DNA of 64,000 nt from Streptomyces sp. RPA4-2 (lineage in GTDB: Bacteria; Actinomycetota; Actinomycetes; Streptomycetales; Streptomycetaceae), in contig NZ_CP050975.2 of the NCBI RefSeq assembly GCF_012273515.2, positions 3,038,001 through 3,102,000 of the forward strand. The letters are read 5' to 3'. How positions within the stretch are numbered: position 1 is the first letter of the stretch; the number at the start of each line of letters is the position of its first letter. The translations under genes were made by a program, and so were the position numbers. Shown piece by piece: positions 33,402 through 52,413 of the stretch. The notes under the pieces are model-generated. The model was not told the DNA's origin. It searched no databases and saw nothing but the letters and a program-made list of their open reading frames with translations.

Positions 33402-33607
33402 GACGCCGGAAGACTAAGTTCCTCATGCGTCCCGTTGATAGTCACGGCTGTGAAAGTTGTGTGGTGAACCATCCGTTTCGGCGCGTCGCCCCCCTCGTTC
33501 ACAGCGGCACGTGTGCGACGACCCGAGGCATACCGCCAAAATCCGCCGCCGACCGTCGCGTTCGACCCATTGACACTCCCGGGCCCGCATCCTACTGTCA
33601 CGCCAGC

Positions 33608-33636
33608 ATTTCGAACGTGTGACGAAATTTCGAACA
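33608..33636 (+). promoter_or_regulatory. candidate IclR operator upstream of the sugar-acid operon
   Basis: ATTTCGAAC occurs twice in direct order (33608-33616, 33627-33635), and CGAAATTTCG (33623-33632) is a perfect palindrome. On the minus strand TGTTCGAAATTTC (33636-33624) is identical over 13 bases to a site at 52397-52409 just before the IclR gene. The 264-base gap 33402-33665 holds nothing else recognisable. Confidence 0.72.
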
Positions 33637-33665
33637 GAACCGCAAGAGCACAGGGGGCAACTGCC

Positions 33666-34823
33666 GTGCGCATCACGGGAATCAGCACACACGTGGTCGG
33701 GACGCCCTGGCGGAACCTGACCTACGTCCAGGTGCACACCGACGAGGGCGTCACCGGAGTCGGCGAGACCCGCATGCTGGGCCACACCGACGCACTGATC
33801 GGCTATCTGCGGGAGGCGGAGGCCAATCACATTCTCGGTTCCGACCCGTTCGCTGTCGAGGACCTCGTCCGGCGCATGAAGTACGGCGACTACGGGCGCG
33901 CCGGCGAGATCGTGATGTCGGGCATCGCCGTCATCGAGATGGCCTGCTGGGACATCAAGGGGAAGGCGCTCGGCGTCCCCGTGTGGCAGTTGCTCGGCGG
34001 CAAGGTCACCGACCGGGTCAAGGCCTACGCGAACGGCTGGTACACGACCGAGCGGACCCCGGAGGCGTACCACAAGGCCGCTCAGGAGGTCGTCGCCCGC
34101 GGGTACCGTGCCCTCAAGATCGACCCGTTCGGCACCGGCCACTTCGAGCTCGACCACGAGGCCACGCTCTACTCCGTCTCGCTCATCGAGGCGGTGCGCG
34201 ACGCGATCGGCCCCGAGACCGAGCTGATGCTGGAGATGCACGGCCGTTTCTCGCCCTCGACCGCCGTCCGGCTCGCCCGCGAGCTCGCGCCCTTCAAGCC
34301 CGCGTGGCTGGAGGAGCCGGTGCCGCCGGAGAACCTGAAGGCGCTGGAGAAGGTGGCCGCCAAGGTCGACATCCCGATCGCCACCGGCGAGCGGATCCAC
34401 GACCGCATCGAGTTCCGTGAGCTGTTCGAGAGCCAGGCCGTCGACGTCATCCAGCCCGACGTCGGTCATCTCGGCGGGATCTGGGAGACCAGGAAGCTGG
34501 CCGCGACCGCCGAGGCCCACTACGTGCTCGTCGCTCCGCACAACGTCGGCGGCCCGGTCCTCACCGCCGCCTCCCTCCAGGTCGGCTTCAGCACCCCCAA
34601 CTTCAAGATCCTGGAACACTTCAACGACTTCGCGGACGCGGAGATCAAGAAGGTCGTGAAGGGCGCCCCGCAGGTCGTCGACGGTTACTTCGAGCTGTCC
34701 CACGAACCCGGTCTCGGTGTCGAGCTGGACGTCGACGCGGCGGCCGAGTTCCCGCAGCAGCAGGCCCGCTTCGACCTCTGGGCGGACGGCTGGGAGCAGC
34801 GCAGGCCGAAGGGGGCGCAGTGA
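33666..34823 (+). CDS. enolase-superfamily sugar acid dehydratase (galactonate dehydratase-like)
   Basis: The 385-residue protein belongs to the mandelate racemase/muconate lactonizing family and probably dehydrates an aldonic acid to a 2-keto-3-deoxy acid. Visible parts: capping domain (VHTDEGVTGVGETRM, MACWDIKGKALGVPVWQLLGG), barrel with LEMHGRF (His plus metal ligand), WLEEPVPPEN, TGERIHDR and VIQPDVGHLGG as further metal-binding ends, and APHN with catalytic His. The His-bearing LEMHGR resembles the galactonate dehydratase subgroup more than mandelate racemase. GTG 33666 has AGGGGG upstream. It heads a seven-gene sugar cluster and overlaps the dehydrogenase gene by four bases. Confidence 0.88.
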   Translation: MRITGISTHVVGTPWRNLTYVQVHTDEGVTGVGETRMLGHTDALIGYLREAEANHILGSDPFAVEDLVRRMKYGDYGRAGEIVMSGIAVIEMACWDIKGKALGVPVWQLLGGKVTDRVKAYANGWYTTERTPEAYHKAAQEVVARGYRALKIDPFGTGHFELDHEATLYSVSLIEAVRDAIGPETELMLEMHGRFSPSTAVRLARELAPFKPAWLEEPVPPENLKALEKVAAKVDIPIATGERIHDRIEFRELFESQAVDVIQPDVGHLGGIWETRKLAATAEAHYVLVAPHNVGGPVLTAASLQVGFSTPNFKILEHFNDFADAEIKKVVKGAPQVVDGYFELSHEPGLGVELDVDAAAEFPQQQARFDLWADGWEQRRPKGAQ

Positions 34824-35824
34824 GTACCGCGGTCGTCGTCGACGCGCCGGGTGAGCACCGGCTGACCGCCCACGAGCCGGTGCCGCCGGCCGCGGGCGAG
34901 GCGCTGGTCCGGGTCCACGCCGTCGGCATCTGCGGCAGCGACCGCGAGGTGTACCAGGGCAACCGGCCCGAAGGGTACGTGCGTTATCCCCTCACCCCCG
35001 GCCACGAGTGGTCCGGGACGGTGGCGGAGGTGGGTGCCGGGGTGCCCGCCGGTCTCGTCGGCCGCAAGGTCGTCGGCGAGGGCTTCCGCAACTGCCAGGT
35101 CTGCGACCGCTGCCACGCGGGCGAGACCACGCTGTGCACGGCGGGGTACGAGGAGACGGGCTTCACCCAGCCGGGTGCGATGGCCGCCACCCTCACCCTG
35201 CCGGCCCGGCTGCTGCACGTCCTGCCGGACGACGCCGACCTGACGGCGGCGGCCCTCCTGGAGCCGGCCGCCTGTGTCGCGGCGGCCGCGCTCAAGGCGG
35301 ACGCGCGCCCCGGTGAACGGGTCGCGGTGGTGGGCACGGGGACGCTCGGGATGTTCGCCGTCCAGTTCCTGCGGGCGGGTTCCCCCGGGGAGCTGCTCGT
35401 CGTGGGCACCCGCCCCGACCGGGACAAGCTCTCGCGGACCTTCGGTGCCACCGACTTCCGTACGAAGGACCAGGAACTGCCCGCCGACTTCGACGTCGTC
35501 ATCGAGACCGCCGGGTCCGCGTCCGCCGCGCGCACCGCCGCCTCCCTGCTCCGGCGCGGCGGACGCCTGGTCCTCACGGGCATCCCGGCGCCGGGCGCCG
35601 AGGGGCTCGACCCGACCGACCTCGTCGTACGGCAGTTGGAGGTGCACACCGTGTTCGGGGCGCCGCCGGCGGCCTGGGCGCACACGGTGCGGGTGTTCGG
35701 CGCGGGGCTGCTCAGCCCCTTGCCGCTGGTCACGCACGAACTGCCGCTCGCCGGGTTCGCCGAGGCCATCGAGTTGGTGGGGTCCGGCGATCCCGCGGTC
35801 GGCAAGGTCCTTCTGCGTCCTTAG
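34820..35824 (+). CDS. zinc-dependent sugar/alcohol dehydrogenase, MDR family
   Basis: The 334-residue enzyme probably oxidises a sugar or sugar alcohol with NAD(P). The catalytic zinc ligands are seen in GICGSD and GHEWSG. The structural zinc lobe is NCQVCDRCHAGETTLC with four Cys. The nucleotide site is VVGTGTLGMFAVQFL, and an Arg-Pro after VGTRPDRDK suggests NADP use. The start overlaps the dehydratase stop (GTGA), so the two are coupled in translation. In context it could form an aldonolactone or act on a downstream intermediate. Galactitol-, threonine- and glucose-dehydrogenase subgroups are hard to tell apart here. Confidence 0.88.
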   Translation: MSTAVVVDAPGEHRLTAHEPVPPAAGEALVRVHAVGICGSDREVYQGNRPEGYVRYPLTPGHEWSGTVAEVGAGVPAGLVGRKVVGEGFRNCQVCDRCHAGETTLCTAGYEETGFTQPGAMAATLTLPARLLHVLPDDADLTAAALLEPAACVAAAALKADARPGERVAVVGTGTLGMFAVQFLRAGSPGELLVVGTRPDRDKLSRTFGATDFRTKDQELPADFDVVIETAGSASAARTAASLLRRGGRLVLTGIPAPGAEGLDPTDLVVRQLEVHTVFGAPPAAWAHTVRVFGAGLLSPLPLVTHELPLAGFAEAIELVGSGDPAVGKVLLRP

Positions 35825-35826
35825 CC

Positions 35827-35869
35827 GTACGCCGGTACGGAGTCACCTGACGGCTCCGTACCGGCGTAC
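35827..35869 (+). terminator. intercistronic hairpin after the dehydrogenase gene
   Basis: A perfect 16-bp stem (35827-35842 / 35854-35869) with an 11-base loop starts 3 bases after the stop codon. It has no T tract and may only reduce or stabilise the upstream transcript. Confidence 0.65.
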
Positions 35870-35940
35870 CACCCGGCCTCCGCACGCCCAGAGCCGCGAA
35901 CTCCGTCCGAAATCACGAACAAGAACATGAAGGACAGCCA

Positions 35941-36909
35941 GTGACCGACCCCTCTCCCTCGGTTCCCCGTCGACCCGGTGAGCAGGCACTCGCCGCGCTC
36001 GGCCTGGGCGCGCCCGCCCTCTCCCCCGCCGACGCCTCGCCGCACAGCTTCCCGGAAGGCGGCCGCTGGCGCACCGAGGTCCCGTCCGTGGAGGGTCCCG
36101 AGGCCCTGGCCGTGGTCCTCAAGGAGTCCTCGCGGCTCGATGTGCCGATCCACCGCATCAGCCAGGGCAGCGGTGTCTGGATGCTGACCGACGCCGAGAT
36201 CACCGAGATGGTCGAGGCCACCGCCTCGCGCGACATCGAGCTGTGTCTGTTCACCGGTCCGCGCGGCACCTGGGACATCGGCGGTTCGGTACGCTCCGAC
36301 TCCCGCGGCGGCGGACTGCGCGCCCGCGGCCACGACGCGGTGGCCGGCTGTGTCGAAGACGCCGTCAGGGCAACGGAGTTGGGCGTCCAGTGTCTGCTCG
36401 TCGCCGACGAGGGCGTGCTGTGGACGCTGCACCGGGCGCGCGTGGCCGGGATCATCCCGGCCGACACGACGCTCAAGCTCTCGGCACTCGTGGGGCCGGT
36501 CAACCCGGCCTCGTACGCGGTATACGAAAGGCTCGGCGCTGACTCCGTCAACGTGCCGAGCGACCTGACGCTCGATCACCTCACGGAGATCCGTCGGGTT
36601 TCGGCCGCACCCATGGACATGTACATCGAAGCCCCCGACGATCTCGGCGGGTATGTCCGGATGTACGAGGTGGCCGAGCTGATCCGGCGCGGCGCACCGA
36701 TCTATCTGAAGTTCGGCCTGTCCAAGGCCCCCGGGATCTACCCGTACGGCCACCACCTGCGGGATCTGACCCTGAACACCGCCAGGGAGCGGGTGCGGCG
36801 CGGCAGGCTCGCCCTGGACCTGCTCGCACGGCACGGAGCGGACGGCGACATGGCGCCGCTCGGCTCGCGAACTCCCGGTCCGATGTCGCGTTTTGACACC
36901 TCCTCATAA
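35941..36909 (+). CDS. U32-peptidase-like / TIM-barrel protein in sugar operon
   Basis: The 322-residue protein looks like an alpha/beta barrel. Repeated strand-helix pairs include [52 protein letters not shown] and [16 protein letters not shown] recall the family being annotated as U32 peptidase-like, but the Cys-rich U32 signature is absent. It has no signal peptide. GTG 35941 follows AAGGACAGCCA. Placement between a sugar-acid dehydratase/dehydrogenase pair and a sugar importer makes an aldolase or isomerase acting on the dehydratase product possible; this is inference. Gly/Arg-rich [19 protein letters not shown] may bind a carboxylate or phosphate. Confidence 0.7.
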
Positions 36910-37054
36910 CGTTCCGACTAACTCCCCTTCACAAAAGCCGACACGGCCGCGCACAATCCCACACACCTCTCCTCGGTCTTTTCTTCGCACCGCCCCGCGG
37001 AGCGTCCCCGCATCGCGAGGCCGAGTCCGGTCCACGACATCAAGGAAGATGATC

Positions 37055-38167
37055 ATGCGTAATCGCAGAGCTGCCCTCACCGCCATAGCCGGCGCCGCAT
37101 CCCTCGCCCTGTCCCTGTCCGCCTGCGGCCAGAGCAGCGACGGCGGCAGCAAGAGCGACAGCAAGGACATCAAGGGAGCCACCATCGGCATCTCGATGCC
37201 GACCAAGTCCTCCGAGCGCTGGATCGGGGACGGCAAGAACGTGGTCAAGGACCTTGAGTCGAAGGGGTACAAGACCAAGCTGGCCTTCGGTGAGGACGAC
37301 CCGGACCAGCAGGTCTCGCAGATCGAGAACATGATCACGCAGGGTGTGAAGGCGCTGATCATCGCGGCCATCGACAACAAGTCGATGAACAACGTGCTCC
37401 AGCAGGCCGCCGACGCCAAGATCCCGGTCATCTCCTACGACCGCCTCATCCTCGGCACCAAGAACGTCGACTACTACGCGTCGTTCGACAACACCAAGGT
37501 CGGCGAGCTGCAGGCCGGTTACATCGTCGACAAGCTCGGTCTGAAGGACGGCAGCAAGAAGGGCCCGTTCAACATCGAGCTGTTCGCGGGCTCGAACGAC
37601 GACAACAACACGAAGTACTTCTTCCAGGGCGCGATGACCGTCCTGCAGCCGTACATCGACAAGAAGCAGCTCGTCGTCAAGTCCGGCCAGACGCAGCTGA
37701 ACCAGGTCACCACGCTGCGCTGGGACGGCGGCACCGCGCAGAAGCGCATGGACGACATCCTGACCTCCGCGTACAAGACGGCCCACGTCGACGCGGTGCT
37801 CTCGCCCTACGACGGCATCTCCATCGGCATCCTGTCGTCGCTGAAGTCGGACGACTACGGGTCCAAGAGCAAGCCGCTGCCGATCGTCTCCGGCCAGGAC
37901 GCCGAGCTCGCGTCGGTGAAGTCGATCATCGCCGGCGACCAGACGATGACCGTCTACAAGGACACCCGCAAGCTCGCGACGGTGGCCTCGAACATGGTCG
38001 ACGCGGCGCTCAAGGGCAAGAAGCCCGAGATCAACGACGACAAGACCTACGACAACGGCACCAAGGTCGTCCCCGCGTACCTGCTGCAGCCGGTGAGCGT
38101 CGACAAGACCAACTACGAGAAGGAACTGGTCGCCACCGGCTACTACAAGGAAAGCGACCTCAAGTAA
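37055..38167 (+). CDS. chvE: sugar-binding lipoprotein of an ABC importer (ChvE type)
   Basis: The 370-residue precursor has a lipoprotein signal with lipobox LSAC. The mature part is a type I periplasmic-binding fold of the ChvE/XylF/MglB group: [58 protein letters not shown] and [15 protein letters not shown]. ChvE of Agrobacterium binds several aldoses (arabinose, galactose, glucose), so several monosaccharides are possible. ATG 37055 is preferred over 37049 because AAGGA lies 8 bases upstream. The 145-base leader may hold its own promoter. The gguA and gguB homologues follow directly. Confidence 0.94.
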
Positions 38168-38199
38168 CCGCCACCTCCTAGTGATTGGAAGGCACGACC

Positions 38200-39750
38200 A
38201 TGGCGGGACCCGTCCTGGAAATGCGCTCGATCGTCAAGACCTTTCCCGGCGTCAAGGCGCTGTCGGACGTCACTCTGACCGTCCAGCAGGGCGAGGTCCA
38301 TGCCATCTGCGGGGAGAACGGCGCCGGCAAGTCGACCTTGATGAAGGTCCTCTCCGGCGTTCACCCGCACGGGAGTTACGAAGGGGACATCCTCTTCGAG
38401 TCGGAGGTCTGCACGTTCAAGGACATCAGGGCCAGTGAACAGCACGGCATCGTGATCATCCACCAGGAGCTGGCCCTGGTGCCCTACCTCTCCATCGCGG
38501 AGAACATCTTCCTCGGCAACGAGCACGCCACCCGCGGGCTCATCAGCTGGACCGAGACGCTGCGGCACGCGTCCGAGCTGCTGCGGCGGGTCGGGCTCGA
38601 CGAGAACCCGCAGACCCGGGTCGCCGACATCGGCGTGGGCAAGCAGCAGCTCGTCGAGATCGCCAAGGCGCTGTCGAAGAAGGTGAAGCTGCTCATCCTG
38701 GACGAGCCGACCGCCGCCCTGAACGACGAGGACAGCGGCAAACTCCTGGATCTCATCCTGGAGTTGAAGAACCAGGGCATGACCTCGATCATCATCTCCC
38801 ACAAGCTGAACGAGATCGAGCGGGTCGCGGACTCGGTGACCATCCTGCGCGACGGGCGGACCATCGAGACGCTCGACGTGAAGGCCGCGGAGACCACCGA
38901 GGACCGGATCATCAGCGGCATGGTCGGCCGCGACCTGGAACACCGCTTCCCGGAGCGGACTCCGCACCACCCGCAGGAGGGAGCCGCGCCCGCCCTGGAG
39001 ATCCGCGACTGGACCGTGTTCCACCCGATCGACCAGCAGCGCAAGGTGGTCGACGACGTGTCGATCACCGTACGGCGCGGTGAGATCGTCGGCATCGCCG
39101 GGCTCATGGGCGCCGGGCGCACCGAACTGGCGATGAACGTCTTCGGGCGCGCCTACGGCCGCTACGCGGGCGGCACGGTGCACAGGGACGGCAAGGAGAT
39201 CCGGACGAAGACCGTGTCCGAGGCGGTCGGGCACGGGATCGCGTACGTCACCGAGGACCGCAAGCACTACGGCCTCAACCTGATCGACACGATCAACCGC
39301 AACATCACGCTCAGCGCCCTGGGCAAGGTCTCCAAGCGCGGGATCGTCGACGAGCACGAGGAGCGACAGGTCTCCGAGGGCTTCCGCAAGTCGATGAACA
39401 TCAAGGCACCCACGGTGTTCGAGCCGGTGGGCAAGCTGTCGGGCGGCAACCAGCAGAAGGTCGTCCTGAGCAAGTGGATCTTCGCGGGCCCGGAGGTGCT
39501 GATCCTGGACGAGCCGACCCGCGGGATCGACGTGGGCGCCAAGTTCGAGATCTACACGGTCATCGACCGGCTGGCGGCCGAGGGCAAGGCGGTCGTCTTC
39601 ATCTCCTCCGAGCTGCCGGAGCTGCTCGGCATGTGCGACCGCATCTACACGATGGCAGCGGGACGGCTGACGGGTGAGTTCTCGCGGGCGGAAGCCTCGC
39701 AGGAATCGCTGATGCGTCAGATGACAAAGGACAAAGAGGTAACCCGATGA
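38200..39750 (+). CDS. gguA: sugar ABC transporter ATP-binding protein, two cassettes (GguA type)
   Basis: The 516-residue protein fuses two ATPase domains, as usual for pentose/galactose importers. The first cassette has Walker [10 protein letters not shown] and Walker [12 protein letters not shown]. The second has a degenerate Walker A (GLMGAGRTE), signature [14 protein letters not shown] and Walker [15 protein letters not shown]. The ATG at 38200 has GGAAGG upstream; an upstream in-frame TTG (38185) is unlikely. It lies 32 bases after chvE and overlaps gguB by four bases. It energises uptake of the sugar bound by the ChvE-type protein. Confidence 0.96.
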
Positions 39751-40991
39751 GCACGGATGTGACCGCCAAGACGCCGGCCCCCGCGCCGGCCGGGAAGAGC
39801 GGCTCGGACACGGCAGGGAGCCTGCTTCAGCTGATGCTGGACGGCATGCGCCGCAACATGCGGCAGTACGGCATGCTGTTCGCCCTCGGTCTGATCGTGG
39901 TGCTGTTCGCCGTGTGGACCAACGGCGACCTGCTGCTGCCGCGCAACGTGTCCAACCTGGTGCTGCAGAACAGCTACATCCTGATCCTCGCGATCGGGAT
40001 GATGCTCGTCATCATCGCGGGCCACATCGACCTGTCGGTCGGCTCGCTGACGGCGTTCGTGGGCGCGATCGGCGCCGTGCTGATGGTCAACCACAACCTC
40101 TCCTGGCCACTCGCCCTGGTGCTGTGCCTGGCCATCGGCGCGGCCGCGGGCGCGGCGCAGGGCTTCCTCATCGCGTATCTCGGCATACCGTCGTTCATCG
40201 TGACCCTGGCGGGCATGCTGACCTTCCGCGGTCTCACCGAGATCTTCCTCAAGGGCCAGACGATCGGCCCGTTCCCCGAGGGTCTGCAGAAGGTCGCCAA
40301 CAGCTTCCTGCCCGAGGTCGGGCCCGACACGAACTACCACAACCTCACGCTGCTGCTCGGCATCGCCCTGATCGCCTTCGTGGTGTTCCAGGAGGTCCGT
40401 GACCGCAAGCGGCAGCAGGAGTTCTCACTCGGCGTCCTGCCCAGGAACCTCTTCCTGCTCAAGCTCGTCGCGCTGATCGCCGCCGTACTCACCGTCACCA
40501 TGCTGCTCGCCAGTTACAAGGGCGCTCCGGTGGTCCTGCTGATCCTCGGCGTCCTGGTCGCCGGCTTCGGCTACCTGATGCGCAACGCGGTCATCGGCCG
40601 CCACATCTACGCGATCGGCGGCAACCTCCCGGCGGCGAAGCTGTCGGGCGTGAAGGACAAGAAGGTCACCTTCCTGGTCTTCCTGAACATGGGCATGCTC
40701 GCGGCCCTGGCGGGTCTGGTCTTCGCCGCCCGCTTCAACGCGGCCTCGCCCAAGGCCGGTCTGAACTTCGAACTCGAAGCGATCGCGGCCTCGTTCATCG
40801 GCGGCGCGTCGATGAGCGGCGGCGTGGGCACGGTCCTCGGCGCGATCATCGGTGGTCTCGTCCTGGGCGTGCTGAACAATGGTATGAACCTCGTCGGCAT
40901 CGGCAGCGACTGGCAGCAGGTCATCAAGGGTCTGGTACTGCTGGCCGCGGTCGGGTTCGACGTGTGGAACAAGCGCAAGGTCGGTTCGTAA
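39747..40991 (+). CDS. gguB: sugar ABC transporter permease (GguB type)
   Basis: The 414-residue membrane protein has about ten hydrophobic segments of the BPD_transp_2 fold. Motifs are [18 protein letters not shown] (EAA-like contact region), [18 protein letters not shown], and the terminal [20 protein letters not shown]. XylH- and GguB-type permeases have an inserted loop with charged residues ([18 protein letters not shown]), seen here at about residues 215-235. It overlaps gguA by ATGA and ends just before a hairpin terminator. It forms the membrane channel of the ChvE-GguAB importer. Confidence 0.95.
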
Positions 40992-40997
40992 GTCGCT

Positions 40998-41019
40998 AGG
41001 GCCCCCACCTCGGTGGGGG
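40998..41019 (+). terminator. hairpin terminator after gguB
   Basis: GGCCCCCACC (40998-41007) pairs with GGTGGGGGCC (41010-41019), followed by TTCAACTT. It lies only 28 bases before the secreted mutarotase gene, so it could act as an attenuator within the operon rather than its end. Confidence 0.75.
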
Positions 41020-41047
41020 CCTTCAACTTCCACTGCAGGAGCCGTAT

Positions 41048-42196
41048 ATGGAAACCAGCAGACGAACGATCATCGCCGCGGCTGCCGCCGCGGGTGTCAC
41101 CGCCGCCACCGTCGGCACCGCGCACGCCGGCACCGGGGGCGGGAAACCGGTCAAGGAACTCTTCGGCAGGCTCGCCGACGGCACGAAGGTCCACCGCTGG
41201 TCGCTCGCCAACGGCGGCACACGTCTGAAGGTCATCTCCTACGGCGGGATCGTCCAGTCCCTGGAGATCCCCGACCGGCACGGCCACTACGCGAACGTCT
41301 CCCTCGGATACGACGACCTGGCGTCCTACGTCGCCGGTACGACGTTCTTCGGGGCGACGATCGGCCGTTACGGCAACCGCATCGCGGCCGGGCGCTTCAC
41401 TCTCGACGGCAAGACCTACCAACTCTCCGTCAACGACGGCGTGAACAGCCTGCACGGCGGGGCCAAGGGCTTCAACACCAAGGTCTGGGACATCGAGGGC
41501 TTCACCTCCGGCTCCGACGTCGGCCTGCACCTGCACTACACCAGCATCGACGGCGAGATGGGCTACCCGGGCACGCTCCGGGTGAAGGTGACCTACACCC
41601 TCACCCGGCACGGCGACTGGCGCATCGACTACGAGGCCACCACCGACAAGGCCACGGTCGTCAACCTCACCAACCACACGTACTACAACCTCGCCGGTGA
41701 GGGCCGCGGCGGCATCTACGACCACGAACTCACCCTGGCGGCGGGGCGCTTCACCCCCACCGACGCCGGTCTGATCCCCACCGGCGAACTGTCGAAGGTC
41801 GCGGGCACCCCCTTCGACTTCCGGCGCGCCAAGCCGGTCGGCCGCGACATCCGGGCAGGCCACCCCCAGCTGGTCACCGCCAAGGGCTTCGACCACAACT
41901 GGGTGCTCGACAAGGGCGTCACCGCCCGGCCCGAGCACATCGCCACCCTGCGCGACCCGGGCTCCGGCCGCACCCTGAAGATCGCGACCGACCAGCCGGG
42001 CGTGCAGTTCTACTCGGGCAACTTCCTGGACGGCACCCTGGTGGGCACCTCCGGACACACCTATCGGCAGGGCGACGGCATGTGCCTGGAGACCCAGCAC
42101 TTCCCGGACTCCCCGAACCAGCCCTCCTTCCCCTCGACGGTGCTGCGCCCGGGGCAGACCTACCGCACGACGACGGTGCACTCCTTCGGCGCCTGA
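41048..42196 (+). CDS. secreted aldose 1-epimerase, Tat signal
   Basis: The 382-residue precursor has a twin-arginine signal (SRRTIIAAAAAAGVTAATVGTAHA) and then a galactose-mutarotase domain. Motifs: GRYGNRIAAGRF, GVNSLHGGAKGFN with His, VNLTNHTYYNLAGEG with the second His, and CLETQHFPDSPN with Glu. It would equilibrate anomers outside the cell, before uptake by the adjacent ChvE-type importer; this fits beta-anomer release by a secreted beta-galactosidase (47623). It is the last gene of the + strand sugar cluster. Exported mutarotases are unusual compared with the cytoplasmic copy at 18791. Confidence 0.93.
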   Translation: METSRRTIIAAAAAAGVTAATVGTAHAGTGGGKPVKELFGRLADGTKVHRWSLANGGTRLKVISYGGIVQSLEIPDRHGHYANVSLGYDDLASYVAGTTFFGATIGRYGNRIAAGRFTLDGKTYQLSVNDGVNSLHGGAKGFNTKVWDIEGFTSGSDVGLHLHYTSIDGEMGYPGTLRVKVTYTLTRHGDWRIDYEATTDKATVVNLTNHTYYNLAGEGRGGIYDHELTLAAGRFTPTDAGLIPTGELSKVAGTPFDFRRAKPVGRDIRAGHPQLVTAKGFDHNWVLDKGVTARPEHIATLRDPGSGRTLKIATDQPGVQFYSGNFLDGTLVGTSGHTYRQGDGMCLETQHFPDSPNQPSFPSTVLRPGQTYRTTTVHSFGA

Positions 42197-42312
42197 CACC
42201 CCGAAACCCGGTGCCGGACGCCGTCGAGGGCCTTGAGGTTGCCCCGGTGCTCGGACCCTCACCGGATCCTCACGAGTTGAACAGCGCCACCCCCGTCTCC
42301 GTATGAGAGGGC

Positions 42313-42336
42313 GGCCCGTGCTCCCCCGCACGGGCC
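42313..42336 (+). other. leader hairpin before the aminotransferase gene
   Basis: GGCCCGTGC (42313-42321) pairs with GCACGGGCC (42328-42336). It sits 11 bases upstream of the GGAGG ribosome-binding site of the aminotransferase gene. No riboswitch class is recognised. Confidence 0.4.
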
Positions 42337-42355
42337 ACCCAGAGACGGAGGTTCC

Positions 42356-44071: not shown

Positions 44072-44118
44072 GGCGGACGCTCGCGGCGGGAGATCCTCCC
44101 GGACCGCGCGGACGACGA

Positions 44119-44148
44119 AGGGCAAGGAGAACTCCCGCTCCTTGCCCT
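44119..44148 (+). terminator. terminator after the aminotransferase gene
   Basis: AGGGCAAGGAG (44119-44129) pairs with CTCCTTGCCCT (44138-44148), followed by CTTCAACGTATA. It isolates the rox gene from upstream transcription. Confidence 0.75.
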
Positions 44149-44169
44149 CTTCAACGTATAGCGCGCCAG

Positions 44170-44189
44170 GGGGCTTGCGGCAAGGCCCC
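44170..44189 (+). promoter_or_regulatory. rifamycin-associated element (RAE) upstream of rox
   Basis: The inverted repeat GGGGCTTGCGGCAAGGCCCC matches the rifamycin-associated element found upstream of many actinobacterial rifamycin-resistance genes, as described in the literature. It lies 155 bases before the rox start and after a terminator. TTGCGG inside it could serve as a -35 element. Expression in response to rifamycins is expected. Confidence 0.85.
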
Positions 44190-44332
44190 GGTCGTGCCGC
44201 AGAATCGTCGACCGGGGCCGGAACCTGCGGAAATGCCTGCTTCACGACGTACATGCGCCGTTGTCCGCGTATGACGTCGGTCGGCGCGCGGGCCTGCGCA
44301 CGGGGCGTCCGGCCAACATCCCCTCTGGTTGA

Positions 44333-45793
<1,461 letters not shown>

Positions 45794-45819
45794 CCGCGCG
45801 GTGGGGGCCGGCGTCCCGT

Positions 45820-46299
45820 TCACCTCCCGTCCGCTCGTCCGGTCAGGGCCGACCGTCCCGGCAGGTCGATCTCGGCGCGGACCGTCTTGCCGGGCGGTTC
45901 CCGGTCCAGTACCTCCCAGCGTGCGGCGAGCGCCTCGACGAGGACGAGCCCGCGCCCCTGTTCGCCGAGCGGGTCCGCGGGCGGTACGGCGCCCGGTCCC
46001 GGCGGACGTGTCCCGTCGCGCGTGTCGCTGACCTCGACCCGGACGCTGCCCGTGACGAGGGAGAGCCGCAGCTCGAAGTCGCGGCCCGGCACCCGGCCGT
46101 GGGTCACCGCGTTGGCGGCCAGTTCGGCGACGATCACGGCGGCGGTGTCGGAGGCGTCCGTGCCGTGCGGGACGCCCCAGGTGTGCAGCTGGTCCAGGGC
46201 GAGGTGGCGGGCGAGGCGGGCGCCGCGCGGGGTGGCGCTGAAACGCTGCGTGAACACACGTACGGTAACCGGGCGTCGGGGGGTGGATGGTGCGGTCAT
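45820..46299 (-). CDS. RsbW-like ATP-binding protein (GHKL anti-sigma kinase family)
   Basis: The 159-residue protein has the HATPase_c domain of the RsbW/SpoIIAB kind. N-box: VIVAELAANAVTHGR with Asn. G1 box: VEVSDTRDGTRPP. G2: EQGRGLVLVEALAARW. Streptomycetes encode dozens of these; some bind sigma factors, most have unknown partners. It is convergent with rox and divergent from the XRE/DUF397 pair at 46426. Such an ATPase next to XRE and DUF397 genes is a recurring Streptomyces trio (whiJ/abaA-like loci), so a developmental or antibiotic-control role is plausible. Confidence 0.9.
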   Translation of the reverse strand: MTAPSTPRRPVTVRVFTQRFSATPRGARLARHLALDQLHTWGVPHGTDASDTAAVIVAELAANAVTHGRVPGRDFELRLSLVTGSVRVEVSDTRDGTRPPGPGAVPPADPLGEQGRGLVLVEALAARWEVLDREPPGKTVRAEIDLPGRSALTGRADGR

Positions 46300-46388
46300 G
46301 CCCCCAATCTGACGGTGGTCACGGGCACTTCACCAGGTCGGCGCCGCGTACGCCGCGGGAGCGTACGCGGTGACGGGGTGGACAGTAC

Positions 46389-46407
46389 TGGTCACGGGGC
46401 GTGACCA
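46389..46407. promoter_or_regulatory. candidate operator in front of XRE gene
   Basis: TGGTCAC (46389-46395) and GTGACCA (46401-46407) form a 7-bp inverted repeat with 5-base spacer, 18 bases before the XRE start. The GTGACCATGG half recurs at 46420-46429 across the start codon. Autoregulation is suggested. Confidence 0.45.
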
Positions 46408-46425
46408 TGGTCGCGGGAGGTGACC

Positions 46426-47274
46426 ATGGCGGTCGAGGGTGCGGTGGGGACGGGTGGCGAGCCGGAGTCGTCCGACAGTCTGCGGACGTTCGGGGCGGTC
46501 GTACAGGCGTTACGGGAGCACGCGGGGCTGAGCCGGGAGGAGTTCGGCGAACGGGTGCGGTTCTCCAAACACACGGTGGCTTCGGTGGAGTTGGGACGCC
46601 GCATGCCGGACCCGACGTTCGTCGACCGGGCGGAGCAGGTACTGGGGAACACCGGGGCGTTACGGAAGGCGGCGGGGCATCTGGCACGGCAGCCGGGACT
46701 GGCGGCGTGGTTCCGGCGATGGGCCCGGTTGGAAGCGGTGGGAATCAGCCTGTACACGTACGAATGCCGAGTCGTACCGGGGCTTTTACAGACGGAGGCG
46801 TACGCACGGGCGGTGTCGTTGAGCGTGCCACCGATTCCGGACGAGGAGGAGTTGAACGAACGGATCGTGGCGCGGTTGGCCCGGCACGAGCTGCTGTCCA
46901 CACGCAGGAAGCCGCCCTGTGCGTTCAGCTTCATCGTGGAACAGTCGGTACTGGAGCGGCGCACCGGTGGCACCGAAGTCACGCGAGCATTGCTCGACCA
47001 CCTGCTGGAGGTAACCGACCGGCACTGGAACGTGGAGTTGCAGATCATGCAGCTCCAACAACCTGTGCACGCGGGGCTGGACGGCCCGATGCAGTTGCTG
47101 GAGACCCCGGAGAATCAGTGGTTCGGCTATTCCGAGGGGCAAGAAAATGGTCGACTCATCTCCGACCCGAAAGAGATCAGCCGCCTCCATCAGCGGTATG
47201 CAAAACTGCGCTCGCAGGCCCTCACCCCAGAGGATTCCAGGGGCCTGCTGAAGCGCATGCGAGGAGACCTATGA
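46426..47274 (+). CDS. XRE family regulator with DUF5753 (Scr1/WhiJ type)
   Basis: The 282-residue protein has a Cro/CI helix-turn-helix at about residues 20-75 (VVQALREHAGLSREEFGERV, then SKHTVASVELGRRMPDP) and a DUF5753 domain after it (TYECRVVPGLLQTEAYARAV, then ERIVARLARHELLS). This is the Streptomyces Scr1/WhiJ class, which works with a small DUF397 partner. The DUF397 gene follows with a 4-base overlap. GGGAGG lies 5 bases before ATG 46426; the in-frame GTG at 46420 is possible. A 7-bp inverted repeat just upstream could be its own operator. Confidence 0.92.
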   Translation: MAVEGAVGTGGEPESSDSLRTFGAVVQALREHAGLSREEFGERVRFSKHTVASVELGRRMPDPTFVDRAEQVLGNTGALRKAAGHLARQPGLAAWFRRWARLEAVGISLYTYECRVVPGLLQTEAYARAVSLSVPPIPDEEELNERIVARLARHELLSTRRKPPCAFSFIVEQSVLERRTGGTEVTRALLDHLLEVTDRHWNVELQIMQLQQPVHAGLDGPMQLLETPENQWFGYSEGQENGRLISDPKEISRLHQRYAKLRSQALTPEDSRGLLKRMRGDL

Positions 47275-47519
47275 GCACCAGCGGACTGATGTGGTTCAAG
47301 TCGAGCTACAGCAGTGGCAGCCAGGGCGACTGCGTAGAGGTTGCCCTCTCCTGGCGCAAGTCCAGCTACAGCAGCGGCGGCGACGGCGACTGCGTAGAGG
47401 TCGCTGCCTCCCCCCGCACCATCCACGTCCGCGACTCCAAGAACCCCCAGGGCCCCCACCTCACCCTCTCCCCGGCCACCTGGTCCGGCTTCCTCACCTA
47501 CGCCGTCTCCCGCGCCTGA
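47271..47519 (+). CDS. DUF397 protein with partial internal duplication
   Basis: The 82-residue partner of the XRE regulator carries the DUF397 core twice. A partial copy, WFKSSYSSGSQGDCVEVAL, is followed by a full copy, WRKSSYSSGGDGDCVEVA, then VRDSKNPQGPHLTLSPATW, which completes the domain. The DNA shows a 60-base tandem duplication (47291-47350 and 47351-47410). Family members are normally about 60-70 residues with one core. It overlaps the XRE stop by ATGA, so translation is coupled. In known pairs the DUF397 protein antagonises or modulates its XRE partner. Confidence 0.9.
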   Translation: MSTSGLMWFKSSYSSGSQGDCVEVALSWRKSSYSSGGDGDCVEVAASPRTIHVRDSKNPQGPHLTLSPATWSGFLTYAVSRA

Positions 47520-47622
47520 GGCCCGGCTGCCGTTGCCGCGCCGGGAATCTCATATGACCGGAATAGGACGTATCGCTGTGGACAATGATCACAGCGACGC
47601 CGCTGTCCCTGGGAGGCCCCGC

Positions 47623-50604
47623 ATGGTGTTGAGCAGACGTACCTTCAGCGCACTCGCCGGCACCGCCGCACTCGGCCTCACGCTGGGCGGCAGCGGGGAC
47701 GGCGGCGCGTACGCGGCCGGCACCGTGCCCACCGGGCCCGCGCCCGGACCGCCCCGCGCCGACGGACGGCGGCACACCATCGGGTTCGACAGCTACTCCA
47801 TGCTGATCGACGGCAGGCGCGTGGTGCTGTGGTCCGGCGAGGTCCACCCCTTCCGGCTGCCGAGCCCCTCCCTCTGGCGCGACGTGCTGCAGAAGCTGCG
47901 CGCCCACGGCTACAACACGATCAGCGTCTACGTCTCCTGGAACTACCACTCCCCCGCCCCCGGGCACTACGACTTCACGGGCGTCCGCGACCTCGGCCTG
48001 TTCCTGCGCACGGCGGCCGAGACGGGTCTGTACGTGATCCTGCGGCCCGGCCCGTACATCAACGCCGAGGTCGACGCCGGCGGCTTCCCGGGCTGGCTGA
48101 CGGCCACCCGGGGCACCGCCCGGACCTCCGACCCGACGTACCTGTCGCACGTGGACGAGTGGCTGACCGCCGTGAACCGGGTCGCGGCCCGGCACCTCCA
48201 CACCGACGGCGGCGGCACGATCGTCCTCTACCAGCTGGAGAACGAGTACGCGAACAACGTCACCAGCCCGCGCGGCCGCGACTACATGGCCCACCTGTAC
48301 GCCAAGGTCCGCGCCGACGGCATCGACGTACCGCTGTTCCACAACGACAAGGGCAGGAACGGCCACTGGGCACCGGGAACCTTCAGCACCGGTGGGGAGA
48401 AGGGCCGTTACCTGTACGGGTTCGACGGCTACCCGTCCCCGGCCGAACCGCCGCCGGACTGGGGCTACTACGGCGTCGGCGGAACGAAGGGCGGTGCGAC
48501 CGCGAGCCCCGGAACCCCGGGGTTCGTCGCCGAGTTCGGCGGCGGCTGGTTCGACCCGTGGGGCGGGGTGGAGTTCGACGGCAAGGGGTACGCGGAGTCG
48601 GCCCGGACCCGGGACGCGGCGTACGAGCGGCGCTTCTACCTGACCAACCTCGCCAACGGCATCAAGATCCACAACGTCTACATGACCTTCGGCGGCACCT
48701 CCTGGGGCTGGCTGCCCGCGCCGATCGTCTACACGTCGTACGACTACGGGGCCGCTCTCGACGAGGCCCGCAGGCCGACCCCGAAGCTGGTCCCCATGCA
48801 CCAGATCGGGCAGCTCCTGCACTCCGTGCCCGACCTCGCCAAACTGGACCGGGCGCCGGCCGTCGCGGTCGGCGACGGCGGCGGGTCGCGGGCCGTCGCC
48901 GGGATCACGGCGTACCACCTCGTCAATCCCGACACCAAGGCGCACTTCCACGTGCTGCGCAACGACCGGCCCGCCGACGTCGTGGCCGCCGTCACGCTCG
49001 CCGGCGAGAGCGTCCGCGTGCCCCTCCCCGGTCTCGACGCCCGGCTGCTCGCCACCGGACTCTCCCTCGGGCGGCGGACCCTGCGGTACTCCAGCGCGCA
49101 GCCCATGCTGCGGCTGGCCGCCGGGCGTCAGGACATCGCGGTGTTCACGGGGCGCGAGGGCGAGGCGACCTGGACGGTGCTGGAGTGCGCCAGCACGCCG
49201 AAGGTCACCGTGCTGGAGGGCAGCGCACGCCATGAGCACGCGCACGGCCTGCTGCGCATCGACGCCGAACTCAGTGGCCTGACACGCGTGTTGGTGGAGG
49301 GCGGTGGCAACACGGTGCCCCTCCTGCTGCTCCTGGCCGACGACAGGGCCTCGGCGCGGCTGTGGCGTCACGACACCCCGTCCGGCCCGGTCCTGGTGCG
49401 GGGCCCGGCCCTGGTGCGCACCGCGGAGCTGCGCGGCACCACCGTCCATCTCACCGGGGACACGGTGACGGCCGCGGACCTGGAGGTGTGGGGGCCGCGC
49501 GGGGTGGACGGCGTGGTCTGGAACCAGGGCGCGGTGCGCACCCGCGCGACCCCGTCCGGCAGTCGGCTGGCCGAGCGGCGGCTGCCCGGCGTACCGGCCG
49601 TCGCGCTCCCCGCGCTGGGGAAGTGGCGCCATCACTCCGAGAACCCGGAGTCCGCCGCCCCTTTCGACGACTCGGCCTGGCGGACCGCCGACCGGACGTC
49701 CTCCCACAGCGTCACCCCCGTACCGGCCGGACAGCCCGTGCTGTTCGCCGACGACTACGGCTTCCACTACGGGGACGTCTGGTACCGGGGTCATTTCGCG
49801 GACACGGCCGGCGCGGAGTCGGTGTCCCTGTCGTACGTCACGGGCACGCAGGGGCTGCTGATGGCGTGGCTGGACGGCAGGCCGCTGGGCACGCACCGGA
49901 TGCCGGTGCCGGACAAGAAGACGGTCCGGCAGGGGACCTGGGCCGCCAGGGCCACCTTCCCGATCACGCCGGAGGCCCGCCGGGCGAAGGGGCCGCATGT
50001 GCTGTCGGTCCTGGTGCGCCGGATGCAGCACGACCAGGACGGCGCGGCCCGGGACACGCACAAGGCGGCCCGCGGGCTGACGGCCGTGACCTTCGGGGGC
50101 GCCTCGCCCGCGCTCTCCTGGCGGATCCAGGGCGCGGCGGCCCCGGACCCGGTGCGCGGGCCGCTGAACCACGGCGGTCTGTACGGGGAGCGGCAGGGCT
50201 GGCATCTGCCGGGGTTCGCGGACGGCGGCTGGAAGGCCGTGGAGTTCCCGCAGGCGCGGCGGGGGCAGGGAGTCTGCTGGTACCGCACCGGGTTCCGGCT
50301 CGCGGTCGACCCCGCCGTGGACGCCTCGATCGGGCTCACCCTCACCGACGACCCGTCCCGCGCCTACCGTGTCCAGATCTTCCTGAACGGCTGGAACCTG
50401 GGCCAGTACATCAACGACGTAGGTCCTCAGCACACCTTCGTGCTGCCGAACGGGGTGCTGAACACACGTGGTGCCAACACCCTGGCCCTCGCCGTGCTGG
50501 CGGACGGGACCACACCCGCGGGGCCGGGCACCGTGCGGCTGACGCTGATGGGCAGCGCGGCCGGAGGAGTGCCGGTGACACCGGTGGCCTCCCCCGGCCG
50601 GTGA
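47623..50604 (+). CDS. secreted beta-galactosidase, GH35
   Basis: The 993-residue precursor has a twin-arginine signal (SRRTFSALAGTAALGLTLGG). The GH35 barrel begins FDSYSMLIDGRRVVLWSGE, with HPFRLPSPSLWRD. The acid/base is Glu208 in LENEYANN, and the nucleophile is Glu304 in FVAEFGGGWFDPW. C-terminal beta-sandwich domains (FHYGDVWYRGHF, FLNGWNLGQYINDVGPQ) are galactose-binding-like. It releases terminal beta-galactose from polysaccharides outside the cell. ATG 47623 has GGGAGG upstream. It may feed the ChvE-GguAB importer and secreted mutarotase at 37-42 kb. No TGTTCGAAATTTC motif is seen in its own leader (47520-47622). Confidence 0.93.
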   Translation: MVLSRRTFSALAGTAALGLTLGGSGDGGAYAAGTVPTGPAPGPPRADGRRHTIGFDSYSMLIDGRRVVLWSGEVHPFRLPSPSLWRDVLQKLRAHGYNTISVYVSWNYHSPAPGHYDFTGVRDLGLFLRTAAETGLYVILRPGPYINAEVDAGGFPGWLTATRGTARTSDPTYLSHVDEWLTAVNRVAARHLHTDGGGTIVLYQLENEYANNVTSPRGRDYMAHLYAKVRADGIDVPLFHNDKGRNGHWAPGTFSTGGEKGRYLYGFDGYPSPAEPPPDWGYYGVGGTKGGATASPGTPGFVAEFGGGWFDPWGGVEFDGKGYAESARTRDAAYERRFYLTNLANGIKIHNVYMTFGGTSWGWLPAPIVYTSYDYGAALDEARRPTPKLVPMHQIGQLLHSVPDLAKLDRAPAVAVGDGGGSRAVAGITAYHLVNPDTKAHFHVLRNDRPADVVAAVTLAGESVRVPLPGLDARLLATGLSLGRRTLRYSSAQPMLRLAAGRQDIAVFTGREGEATWTVLECASTPKVTVLEGSARHEHAHGLLRIDAELSGLTRVLVEGGGNTVPLLLLLADDRASARLWRHDTPSGPVLVRGPALVRTAELRGTTVHLTGDTVTAADLEVWGPRGVDGVVWNQGAVRTRATPSGSRLAERRLPGVPAVALPALGKWRHHSENPESAAPFDDSAWRTADRTSSHSVTPVPAGQPVLFADDYGFHYGDVWYRGHFADTAGAESVSLSYVTGTQGLLMAWLDGRPLGTHRMPVPDKKTVRQGTWAARATFPITPEARRAKGPHVLSVLVRRMQHDQDGAARDTHKAARGLTAVTFGGASPALSWRIQGAAAPDPVRGPLNHGGLYGERQGWHLPGFADGGWKAVEFPQARRGQGVCWYRTGFRLAVDPAVDASIGLTLTDDPSRAYRVQIFLNGWNLGQYINDVGPQHTFVLPNGVLNTRGANTLALAVLADGTTPAGPGTVRLTLMGSAAGGVPVTPVASPGR

Positions 50605-50622
50605 CCGTCGGCGGAGCCTGAT

Positions 50623-50655
50623 CGTCCCCGTCCGGTCGGCGACCGGGCGGGGACG
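50623..50655. terminator. terminator between beta-galactosidase and lactonase genes
   Basis: A 15-bp stem (50623-50637 / 50641-50655), with one G-T pair and a 3-base loop, lies between the convergent genes. Confidence 0.78.
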
Positions 50656-50685
50656 TCGGGGGGGAGCCTGTTGTCCGGGAAACCG

Positions 50686-51606
50686 TCAGCCGGCGAACGC
50701 GGGCTGTGCCAGGCCCTTGCCCGCGCCGGGGACGACGAGGACCGAGCCGGAGAGCGGGTGCGGCGCGACCAGACCCGTACGGGCGGTGGTGATGTACAGG
50801 TCGGTCAGGTCCGCGCCACCGAACGCGCAGGCGGTGGGGCGGCGGACCGGGAGGGCGATCACGCGGTCGAGGCGGCCGTCGGGGGTGTAGCGGCGGACCG
50901 CGCCGCCGTCCCAGAACGCCACCCAGACGCAGCCATCGGCGTCCACGGTGAGGCCGTCCGGGTAACCCTCGTCAGCAGCGATGGTCACCAAAGCCCGCCT
51001 GTTGCGGGGAAGTTGGTCCTCGCCGACGTCGAAGACGTCGATCCGCCGGGTCGGGGTGTCGATGTAGTACATCAGCCGGCCGTCGGGGCTCCATCCCGTG
51101 CCGTTGCTGACGGTGACGTCGTCCAGGACGGTGTGCGCGGTGCCGTCCGCGGCGATCCGGGACAGCGCGCCGCCGCCCCGGTCCTCGTCGTAGCGCATGC
51201 TGCCGGCCCAGAGCGCGCCGTCGGGGGCGACCGCCGCGTCGTTGCCCCGGCGGCCGGGGACGAGTTCGCGGTGCAGCCAGCGGAATCCCCCGGATGAACC
51301 GGATGAACCTGATGAACCTGATGAACCTGATGAACCTGATGAACCTGATGAACCTGATGAACCTGCGGGATCGTACAGCCCCACCCCGTCACGGAGGTTG
51401 ACCACCAGGCCGCCGCCCACGCGGGGCTTGGCCGCGCCCACGTGCTGCTCGGTGACCATGACCGTACGGCGCCCGGAGACGGGATCGTAGGTGTGGACCC
51501 GGGAGCCGAGGATGTCGACCCAGATCAGCCGCTGTTCGCGGGCGTCCCAGGTCGGGCCCTCGCCGAGGGCCGCGTCGGCGCGTATCGCGACGTCGAAGGA
51601 GGTCAT
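50686..51606 (-). CDS. SMP-30/gluconolaconase family lactonase with Ser-Ser-Gly repeat insert
   Basis: The 306-residue six-bladed propeller probably hydrolyses an aldono-1,4- or 1,5-lactone to the sugar acid. Metal ligands fit the family: Glu in ALGEGPTWD, Asn in VSNGTGWSPDG, and Asp in YPDGLTVDADG. In the first third a run of Ser-Ser-Gly units (8 copies, DNA 51292-51363) interrupts a surface loop. It follows the IclR regulator with a 4-base overlap (ATGA), so both come from the promoter with the TGTTCGAAATTTC motif. With the dehydratase at 33666 it would form lactone-to-ketodeoxy-acid steps of one pathway. Confidence 0.9.
   Translation of the reverse strand: MTSFDVAIRADAALGEGPTWDAREQRLIWVDILGSRVHTYDPVSGRRTVMVTEQHVGAAKPRVGGGLVVNLRDGVGLYDPAGSSGSSGSSGSSGSSGSSGSSGSSGGFRWLHRELVPGRRGNDAAVAPDGALWAGSMRYDEDRGGGALSRIAADGTAHTVLDDVTVSNGTGWSPDGRLMYYIDTPTRRIDVFDVGEDQLPRNRRALVTIAADEGYPDGLTVDADGCVWVAFWDGGAVRRYTPDGRLDRVIALPVRRPTACAFGGADLTDLYITTARTGLVAPHPLSGSVLVVPGAGKGLAQPAFAG
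51292..51363. repeat. 9-bp minisatellite within the lactonase gene
   Basis: Eight tandem copies of a 9-base unit: two GGATGAACC, then six TGATGAACC. They encode Ser-Ser-Gly on the minus strand. The unit length is a multiple of three, so gain or loss keeps the frame. Confidence 0.95.
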
Positions 51607-52379
51607 CCCCGCACGCTCCGGTGGCCGAGCCGCTCGGAGAGGTCGGCCGCGCCCTTCGCGGCGAGCTGCTCCAGCTCGGCGCGGCGCTCGTCGCTCCAGC
51701 GGATCATCGGTACGGAGATGGAGAGCGCGGCGACGACCTGTCCCGTGCGGTCGCGCACCGGGGCGGCGACACAGCTGACGTCCGGGTTCGACTCACGGCT
51801 CTCCACGGCGACGCCGCGGCGGCGGATCTCCGCCAGGGCCTCGCGCAGGGCGCCCGGTTCGGTGATGCTGTTCGGTGTCATCGCGGCCAGGTCCGCGTCG
51901 TCGGGGATGCGGGAGGCCAGCTCCGGATCGGGCAGCGAGGCGAGCAGCATCTTGCCCACGGAGGTGCAGTGGGCGGGAAGGCGGCGCCCGGCCGCCGACA
52001 CCATGCGCACGGCGTGCGTGGAGTCGACCTTCGCGATGTAGATGACGTCCGTGCCCTCGAGGATCGCCACATGGACCGTCTCGTCGCAGGTCTCGGCGAC
52101 GGTGCGGGCGACCTGCTGGCCCTCCGCGGCGAGGTCCAGCTGCTCGGCATAGCGGCTGCCGAGCTGGTACGGCCGCACGCCGAGGCGGTAGCGTCCGGGC
52201 TGGCCCGGTATCTGCACGATGTACGAGCGGGCGGCGAGCGTGGTGACCAGCTCGTGCACCGTCGTCCGCGGCAGTTGCAGCCTGCGCACGATGTCGGGGG
52301 CGGAGAGCGTGCCGTCCCCGTCGAGGAAGAGCTCGAGAATGTCGAGAGCTCGGGTCACGGCAGGTACGAGGCGTCCCAC
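51603..52379 (-). CDS. IclR family regulator of the sugar-acid pathway
   Basis: The 258-residue protein has the IclR winged helix-turn-helix (ALDILELFLDGDGTLSAPDI, then RRLQLPRTTVHELVTTL) and a GAF-like effector domain (HVAILEGTDVIYIAKVDS, LPAHCTSVGKMLLASL, then SCVAAPVRDRTGQVVAALS). The conserved Cys and effector-loop residues are present. GTG 52379 follows GGGAGGGGGCCGGTT. The lactonase gene overlaps its end, forming a regulator-enzyme operon. The TGTTCGAAATTTC site 18 bases upstream is shared with the dehydratase operon 18.8 kb away, so IclR probably controls both; the effector may be a sugar acid or its dehydration product. Confidence 0.92.
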   Translation of the reverse strand: MGRLVPAVTRALDILELFLDGDGTLSAPDIVRRLQLPRTTVHELVTTLAARSYIVQIPGQPGRYRLGVRPYQLGSRYAEQLDLAAEGQQVARTVAETCDETVHVAILEGTDVIYIAKVDSTHAVRMVSAAGRRLPAHCTSVGKMLLASLPDPELASRIPDDADLAAMTPNSITEPGALREALAEIRRRGVAVESRESNPDVSCVAAPVRDRTGQVVAALSISVPMIRWSDERRAELEQLAAKGAADLSERLGHRSVRG

Positions 52380-52396
52380 AACCGGCCCCCTCCCTA

Positions 52397-52413
52397 TGTT
52401 CGAAATTTCAACA
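52397..52413 (-). promoter_or_regulatory. candidate IclR operator before its own gene
   Basis: TGTTCGAAATTTCAACA is a near-palindrome (core GAAATTTC, flanks TGTT/AACA). Its first 13 bases equal the minus-strand sequence at 33636-33624 in front of the dehydratase operon. Its position just upstream of the GTG suggests autorepression. Confidence 0.72.

Follow-up and report, generated by a model that had tools for sequence, protein, structure and literature searches.

A putative IclR regulon for sugar-acid catabolism in Streptomyces, with two-box operators before a lactonase operon and a dehydratase–importer operon

Non-phosphorylative pathways for L-arabinose or D-galactose employ SMP-30 lactonases, and pathways of the De Ley–Doudoroff type break down D-galactose or D-galactonate. 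Suvorova and Gelfand 2021 (PMC8222616) describe the operators of IclR group 1 as tandem sites with centers 18–22 nt apart, report three-box sites as well, including those of the PcaU type, and state that regulons of the NGT-12-ACN subgroup frequently contain genes for sugars and sugar acids. We have analyzed a 64,000-nt stretch of the Streptomyces sp. RPA4-2 genome (contig NZ_CP050975.2, positions 3,038,001 to 3,102,000), hereafter the window, which contains an iclR–lactonase operon and an operon that begins with a dgoD-like sugar-acid dehydratase gene and includes the genes of a sugar importer. Matching operators stand before both, and comparison with relatives makes it highly likely that the product of the IclR-family gene at 51603-52379 acts locally to repress a regulon for sugar-acid catabolism, with both operons under this one regulator.

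A sequence-only reading of the window had noted an identical 13-mer, TGTTCGAAATTTC, before the two operons, had called it far above chance, and had proposed a genome-wide scan for random scatter. Both copies are present, one on the minus strand (33624-33636) and the other on the plus strand (52397-52409); they are the only exact copies in the window (0 in 100 shuffles), and the scan of the 9.86-Mb genome likewise retrieves these two sites only. From composition (window GC, 71.7%), ∼0.007 copies are expected per genome and 5e-5 per window. Repeated 13-mers are common in the window (1284 distinct), and TGTTCGAAATTTC is the only one of them with at least nine A/T positions; the case for it therefore rests on its AT-rich make-up and its promoter position, and on that footing the claim of an excess over chance holds. 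Both copies are close to start codons, 30 nt from the GTG of the dgoD-like gene (33666) and 18 nt from the GTG of iclR (52379), a placement that would also suit a translation signal or some other element acting at the RNA level. Such an element, or mere coincidence, is nonetheless extremely improbable as the source of the shared 13-mer: the expected number of copies is far too low for coincidence, the iclR operator of the relatives listed keeps its place by a TAGCCT box while its distance from the start codon shifts by tens of bases (L021 at longer range, with small insertions in L019 and L030), and genome-wide uniqueness together with operator conservation in relatives already contradicts both ideas.

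At each promoter a longer two-box operator lies just downstream of the predicted −10 box, and the 13-mer is what the two operators have in common (Table 1). The sequence-only reading was correct about the 13-mer and the two sites that it gave, but it overlooked the rest of the operator at each of them, as well as a third operator within the dehydratase–importer operon. At all three operators the half-site repeat is 19 bp, within the 18–22 nt described for tandem sites. The geometry CGA[AT]C-N14-CGAAC occurs at four places in the window, namely the two main operators, the third site (35897-35920), and one other place (29730-29753), and one relative (L102) has a palindrome of 37 nt as its iclR operator. 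Searched in the genome at up to 2 mismatches, the 29-nt two-box pattern finds 2 perfect sites, which are the two main operators, one site with 1 mismatch (9768341-9768369), and seven with 2 mismatches. When the spacing between the boxes is set off by one base, as an off-register control, no genome site has fewer than 2 mismatches.

The dgoD operator directly follows the predicted −10 box, and the iclR operator begins near the expected transcription start of its predicted promoter. TACTGT and TAGCCT each match the consensus at 3 of 6 positions, and a promoter scanner that demands at least 4 of 6 in every hexamer misses both promoters, which therefore stand as predictions. Operators that follow predicted −10 boxes suggest repression. 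Members of the IclR family are said to act as activators or repressors, and IclR could accordingly be an activator here, or a repressor at one promoter and an activator at the other; with operators at or downstream of the start at both promoters, a position typical of repression if the predicted promoters are right, we consider this unlikely.

Operator counts in relatives cover fetched loci at which identity reaches 70% for dgoD and iclR or 60% for other genes, the match starts within the first 40 residues, and no less than 120 nt of DNA is available upstream. Loci from the same genome, scattered pattern matches, and loci failing these limits were left out, and the counts are of distinct upstream sequences of up to 200 nt. 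The operator is kept in all 123 dgoD upstream regions, with no more than 1 mismatch in 17 positions (106 at 0 mismatches, 17 at 1), and in all 76 iclR regions, with up to 3 (39, 14, 7, and 16 at 0, 1, 2, and 3 mismatches). When the 22 loci that carry both genes are set aside, the operator is still kept at 103/103 dgoD and 57/57 iclR regions. Control regions are almost all at 5 or more mismatches, the nearest approach being at least 6 for the dehydrogenase (106 regions) and gguA (83), at least 5 for galM (76), and at least 4 for cobD (68), curA (63), lactonase (63), gguB (81), and chvE (54). A further control, marR, gave 3 of 65 regions at 0 mismatches, an artifact of overlong upstream strings reaching into the dgoD promoter, with the rest at 4 or more. 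The reversed operator pattern comes no closer than 3 mismatches, in one dehydrogenase region, with all other regions at 4 or more. Among the genes between the two operons, neither the cobD-like gene (the same 68 distinct regions) nor the GH35 beta-galactosidase gene (2 distinct regions, 7 mismatches) has the operator in relatives; the rifampin monooxygenase gene yielded 0 usable relatives. Operator columns carry 1.83 bits before dgoD, with 0.36 in the downstream flank and 1.3 in the upstream flank (33 rows with enough flank), and 1.21 bits before iclR, as compared to 0.32 and 0.46 in its flanks (37 rows).

Of 246 genomes sampled from the genus, 172 have homologs of iclR (E up to 1e-60) and 170 have homologs of dgoD (E up to 1e-100). 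The two tables, compared by eye, place both genes in 166 genomes, iclR only in 6, dgoD only in 4, and neither in 70; the dgoD match is only paralog-like (∼1e-103) in three of the dgoD-only genomes (G010, G075, and G149) and in one genome counted as having both (G047). An internal stop (‘1 TGA’) flagged in many dgoD homologs was dismissed, since it appears in a single fetched match (L104), where it coincides with the natural C terminus, and in none of the others listed. Among named genomes, the closest relatives of the dehydratase are from Streptomyces. The scan of these genomes, for which the best 80 loci of a larger list were used, finds dgoD, the dehydrogenase gene, a gene for a predicted TIM-barrel protein, chvE, gguA, and gguB at all 80, and galM at 76.

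The order of the genes varies widely. In the lineage of the window the two operons are convergent and lie kilobases to tens of kilobases apart. In a sister lineage (L089–L100), dgoD and iclR are divergent neighbors with one common intergenic region at 12 of the 12 loci fetched for that arrangement, and both operators can be read there, the one on the iclR side being degenerate in L096. The divergent arrangement is found likewise in L271, L273, and L153; in L101–L103 the two genes are near each other with no common intergenic region. They are 4.0–4.5 Mb apart on one contig in three genomes (G170, G232, and G052) and on different contigs in four more (G072, G245, G053, and G029), and all seven keep both operators, that of dgoD at 0 mismatches and that of iclR at 3 mismatches in the other orientation. 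This comparison is a clean natural experiment, in which the operators persist while the genes shift from a common intergenic region to tens of kilobases to megabases.

Sequence comparison thus establishes that the operators exist, are conserved, and are linked to iclR, as well as which genes the operons contain. We assign the local IclR to both sites because all accepted relatives retain the operators upstream of both genes, because dgoD and iclR are divergent neighbors at the 12 loci just described, because both operators persist in the seven genomes with the genes far apart, and because the genes co-occur; a weaker fifth line is that the half-sites and their 19-bp spacing resemble published IclR sites. 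The proposal of the sequence-only reading, that IclR regulates both operons and so links the lactonase and dehydratase steps, draws its support from the first four of these lines. Some different regulator, either another IclR paralog or a LacI-type protein, might bind the operators instead, with the local IclR merely one of its targets. A loose first search gave 68 candidate IclR-like places in the genome (10 of them scored), and the two main sites, at which binding of the local IclR is a prediction, do not have the strict IclR consensus, both of which would suit such a regulator. It would, however, have no ready account of the divergent adjacency in the sister lineage, the co-occurrence counts, or the retention of both operators with genes megabases apart, and we judge it very unlikely.

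Several observations weigh against assigning the two operons to the local IclR as a sugar-acid regulator. The search pattern was derived from the window's own two sites, and the relatives share ancestry, so that the counts are not independent events. The upstream flank of dgoD is itself conserved, being the promoter, and the iclR sites of some lineages are at 3 mismatches, often in the other orientation. The strict published IclR palindromes, NGTYCRAW4TYGRACN and GKTYCRYW3-4RYGRAMC, occur in 0 of the 123 dgoD and 0 of the 76 iclR regions. In distant families (IclR 50–58% identical), just 3 of 10 loci have a palindrome, which in one of them adjoins iclR, so the conservation of the motif extends through the genus and is not established beyond it. 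In one genome (G168), the 19.9 kb read has iclR, the lactonase, the importer, the epimerase, and the operator, with no dgoD, dehydrogenase, or TIM-barrel gene in that stretch. Neighbors at two of the distant loci are of fatty-acid type (L264) or mixed (L269) and are not arabinose genes. Finally, the dgoD-like enzyme is below the curated cut-off of the galactonate dehydratase model NF010624 (299.8 versus 311 bits), and the label ‘DgoD’ is therefore weak.

Binding, tetramer formation, repression, the effector, and the substrate are what we infer from these comparisons, as follows. IclR would bind as a tetramer, one dimer on each of two tandem boxes 19 bp apart. It would do so immediately after the −10 box at its own (iclR–lactonase) promoter and at the dgoD-like promoter, and probably also at the third site inside the operon, before the TIM-barrel–chvE–gguAB–galM part. 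Its release would be brought about by an intermediate of the pathway, probably a sugar acid or a 2-keto-3-deoxy acid, upon which import, epimerization, lactone opening, dehydration, and later steps would be switched on together. An anonymous IclR with close homologs in 172 of the 246 sampled genomes would thereby gain a sugar-acid regulon that can be tested at three precisely placed operators.

The third operator stands before the TIM-barrel gene. Its palindrome, GTYCGNNATNNCGRAC, is found at most 250 nt upstream of that gene in 77 of the 80 named loci (perfectly in 62, with one mismatch in 15), and at 54 other places in the same 80 loci at up to 1 mismatch. The subgroup-iv form of the published consensus, NGTYCRAW4TYGRACN, occurs at this operator in 24 of 98 distinct relatives and in none of eight non-operator gene sets, and the window's own copy deviates from it. 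A looser operator pattern precedes the gene at 108 of 112 loci, a count for which there is no control set for comparison. Shortly before the operator is a strong predicted hairpin, and 67 of 112 relatives have an inverted repeat at the hairpin position whose arms measure 12 or longer, as compared to 0 of 83 gguA and 15 of 68 cobD control regions; it is possibly a terminator or attenuator. Since this operator and the hairpin both fall between the dehydrogenase and TIM-barrel genes, the dgoD-like operon probably has two regulated parts, with no clear promoter visible at the third operator.

The TIM-barrel protein, which the regulon ties to the sugar-acid pathway, is conserved and uncharacterized. 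It has no match in Pfam (E up to 1e-5), NCBIfam (1e-10), or PDB sequences (E up to 1), and its homologs, at least 1216 among the candidates scored, are called hypothetical or peptidase U32 where they are named. A fold search with the predicted model retrieved class II aldolases, RuBisCO, RuBisCO-like proteins, CutC, a U32 protein, and others; the fold matches listed are generic TIM barrels of several families, and none stands out. At the distant loci, the TIM-barrel gene lies within ∼3 kb of the IclR homolog in 8 of 10 and dgoD is near in 3 of 10, so the former stays near IclR even at distant loci without an enolase-type dehydratase. There is no recognizable aldolase in the cluster. We tentatively suggest that the TIM-barrel protein may be an undescribed enzyme class that carries the 2-keto-3-deoxy sugar acid onward; if this is true, Streptomyces would have with it a complete oxidative route for L-arabinose/D-galactose. 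It is the least known part of the system and the best lead for something new.

We lean toward oxidative L-arabinose catabolism without phosphorylation, perhaps together with D-galactose, as the pathway served. In L153 the sites are flanked by the lactonase gene on one side and, on the other, by a cluster for a CUT1 importer with an alpha-L-arabinofuranosidase among its genes. Among the 20 chosen proteins scanned from six of the 10 distant loci fetched, GH43 enzymes appear in L263 and L267, an arabinofuranosidase in L263, GntP permeases in L260 and L261, and an IlvD/EDD dehydratase in L261. D-galactose or D-galactonate in place of L-arabinose is a possible but less probable substrate: the best NCBIfam match of the dehydratase is galactonate dehydratase, though below the curated cut-off as noted; the operon has a GalM-like epimerase; and a GH35 beta-galactosidase gene adjoins the lactonase gene, yet it lacks the operator in the window as in the 2 relatives mentioned earlier. 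The arabinofuranosidase genes that accompany the system in L153 and L263 likewise favor L-arabinose over galactose.

The features of the two operons are collected in Table 1. All three NCBIfam models for the ChvE–GguAB multiple monosaccharide ABC importer score above their cut-offs, and the regulator has the N-terminal HTH_IclR and C-terminal IclR_C domains of its family. Between the operons are genes for an aminotransferase, a rifampin monooxygenase (44345-45793; NCBIfam NF033145, 838.5 bits, above the cut-off of 800), HTH/DUF5753 and DUF397 proteins, and the GH35 beta-galactosidase. A D-cycloserine-synthetase-like protein is encoded on the minus strand at 53158-54114, with a score of 314.8 bits that is below the cut-off of 360.

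Table 1. Operators, promoters, and genes of the two operons, in window coordinates
Feature	Coordinates	Strand	Details
Predicted promoter of the dgoD-like operon	33570..33598	+	TTGACA, 17-nt spacer, TACTGT; block present in relatives
dgoD operator ATTTCGAACGTGTGACGAAATTTCGAACA	33608..33636		Contains the 13-mer (33624-33636, −); CGAAC-N14-CGAAC geometry
dgoD-like sugar-acid dehydratase (MR_MLE, enolase superfamily)	33666..34823	+	Pfam PF13378/PF02746; member of MR_MLE
Zn-dependent alcohol/sugar dehydrogenase	34820..35824	+	Pfam PF08240/PF00107
Predicted hairpin between dehydrogenase and TIM-barrel genes	35826..35870	+	18-bp stem; fold −43.3 kcal/mol, z −5.2
Third operator CGAACTCCGTCCGAAATCACGAACA	35897..35921		Matched by the 18-mer TGTTCGNNATNNCGAACA as 35904-35921; before TIM-barrel gene
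Conserved protein, predicted (beta/alpha)8 barrel	35941..36909	+	AlphaFold model, mean pLDDT 86, pTM 0.87
ChvE-type sugar-binding protein	36893..38167	+	NF040907, 535.6 bits (cut-off 460)
GguA sugar ABC transporter ATPase	38185..39750	+	NF040905, 872.8 bits (cut-off 810)
GguB sugar ABC transporter permease	39747..40991	+	NF040906, 563.1 bits (cut-off 450)
Aldose 1-epimerase (GalM-like)	41048..42196	+	PF01263, 315.1 bits
SMP-30/gluconolactonase-family lactonase	50686..51606	-	PF08450, 276.4 bits (cut-off 26.3)
IclR-family transcriptional regulator	51603..52379	-	258 aa, GTG start; PF09339, 50.4 bits (cut-off 22); PF01614, 161.7 bits (cut-off 24)
iclR operator, two tandem boxes	52397..52433		37 bp; TGTTCGTCATGCCGATCG t CTGTTGAAATTTCGAACA on the minus strand
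Predicted iclR promoter	52435..52464	-	TTGCCC, 18-nt spacer, TAGCCT; TAGCCTGTGTTCG-like block in relatives

Elsewhere in the same genome the dgoD operon recurs in decayed form, at ∼9768325-9769982 (L275:8325-9982), headed by the operator with 1 mismatch given above; it comprises remnants of dgoD (residues 1-53) and of the TIM-barrel gene (residues 230-271), followed by a ChvE gene above the curated cut-off. Scans of the genome for further targets, with a perfect palindrome at up to 3 mismatches, the 18-mer TGTTCGNNATNNCGAACA at up to 2, and TTCGAAATTTC at up to 1, gave scattered matches. The candidate regions at ∼289359, 2811461, and 6967901 are not claimed as targets; the last is flanked by genes for a TrmB-like regulator and a PP2C phosphatase. 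Nor do we claim an IclR-like palindrome at 464840-464857 (L270:4841-4858), with half-sites nearby, which lies 410 nt from a GH54 arabinofuranosidase open reading frame (ORF). In several relatives a site resembling TGTTCGGTATTTCGGCCA recurs 1.5-7.3 kb upstream of dgoD (L178:7490, L162:7226, L180:8438, and similar places); in L178 it is at the start of the ORF for a YtfQ-like binding protein that adjoins a LacI gene.

SCO2402-2407 may be the counterpart cluster in Streptomyces coelicolor. PMC10704036 names SCO2404 as a GlnR target, which would bear on the present cluster if the two are orthologous. Among the literature matches listed, we recognized no publication on this regulon. Relative to the IclR group-1 regulons described in PMC8222616, the half-sites are the same (GTTCG/CGAAC), with box centers here 19 bp apart. 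The dgoD and iclR sites differ from group-1 sites in carrying one degenerate half per box. The dgoD operator and the third operator show an external direct half-site repeat (CGAAC-N14-CGAAC) that invites comparison with the three-box sites of the PcaU type; PcaU, however, regulates aromatic catabolism, whereas the genes here are for sugar acids. As compared to the non-phosphorylative pathways, the locus has the same complement of lactonase, sugar-acid dehydratase, dehydrogenase, ChvE–GguAB importer, and epimerase, here under one operator, but its dehydratase belongs to the enolase superfamily, and the cluster has the unassigned TIM-barrel protein rather than a recognizable aldolase or KDA dehydratase. 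We file the regulator under the IclR family; the regulon is of a sound but ordinary bacterial type.

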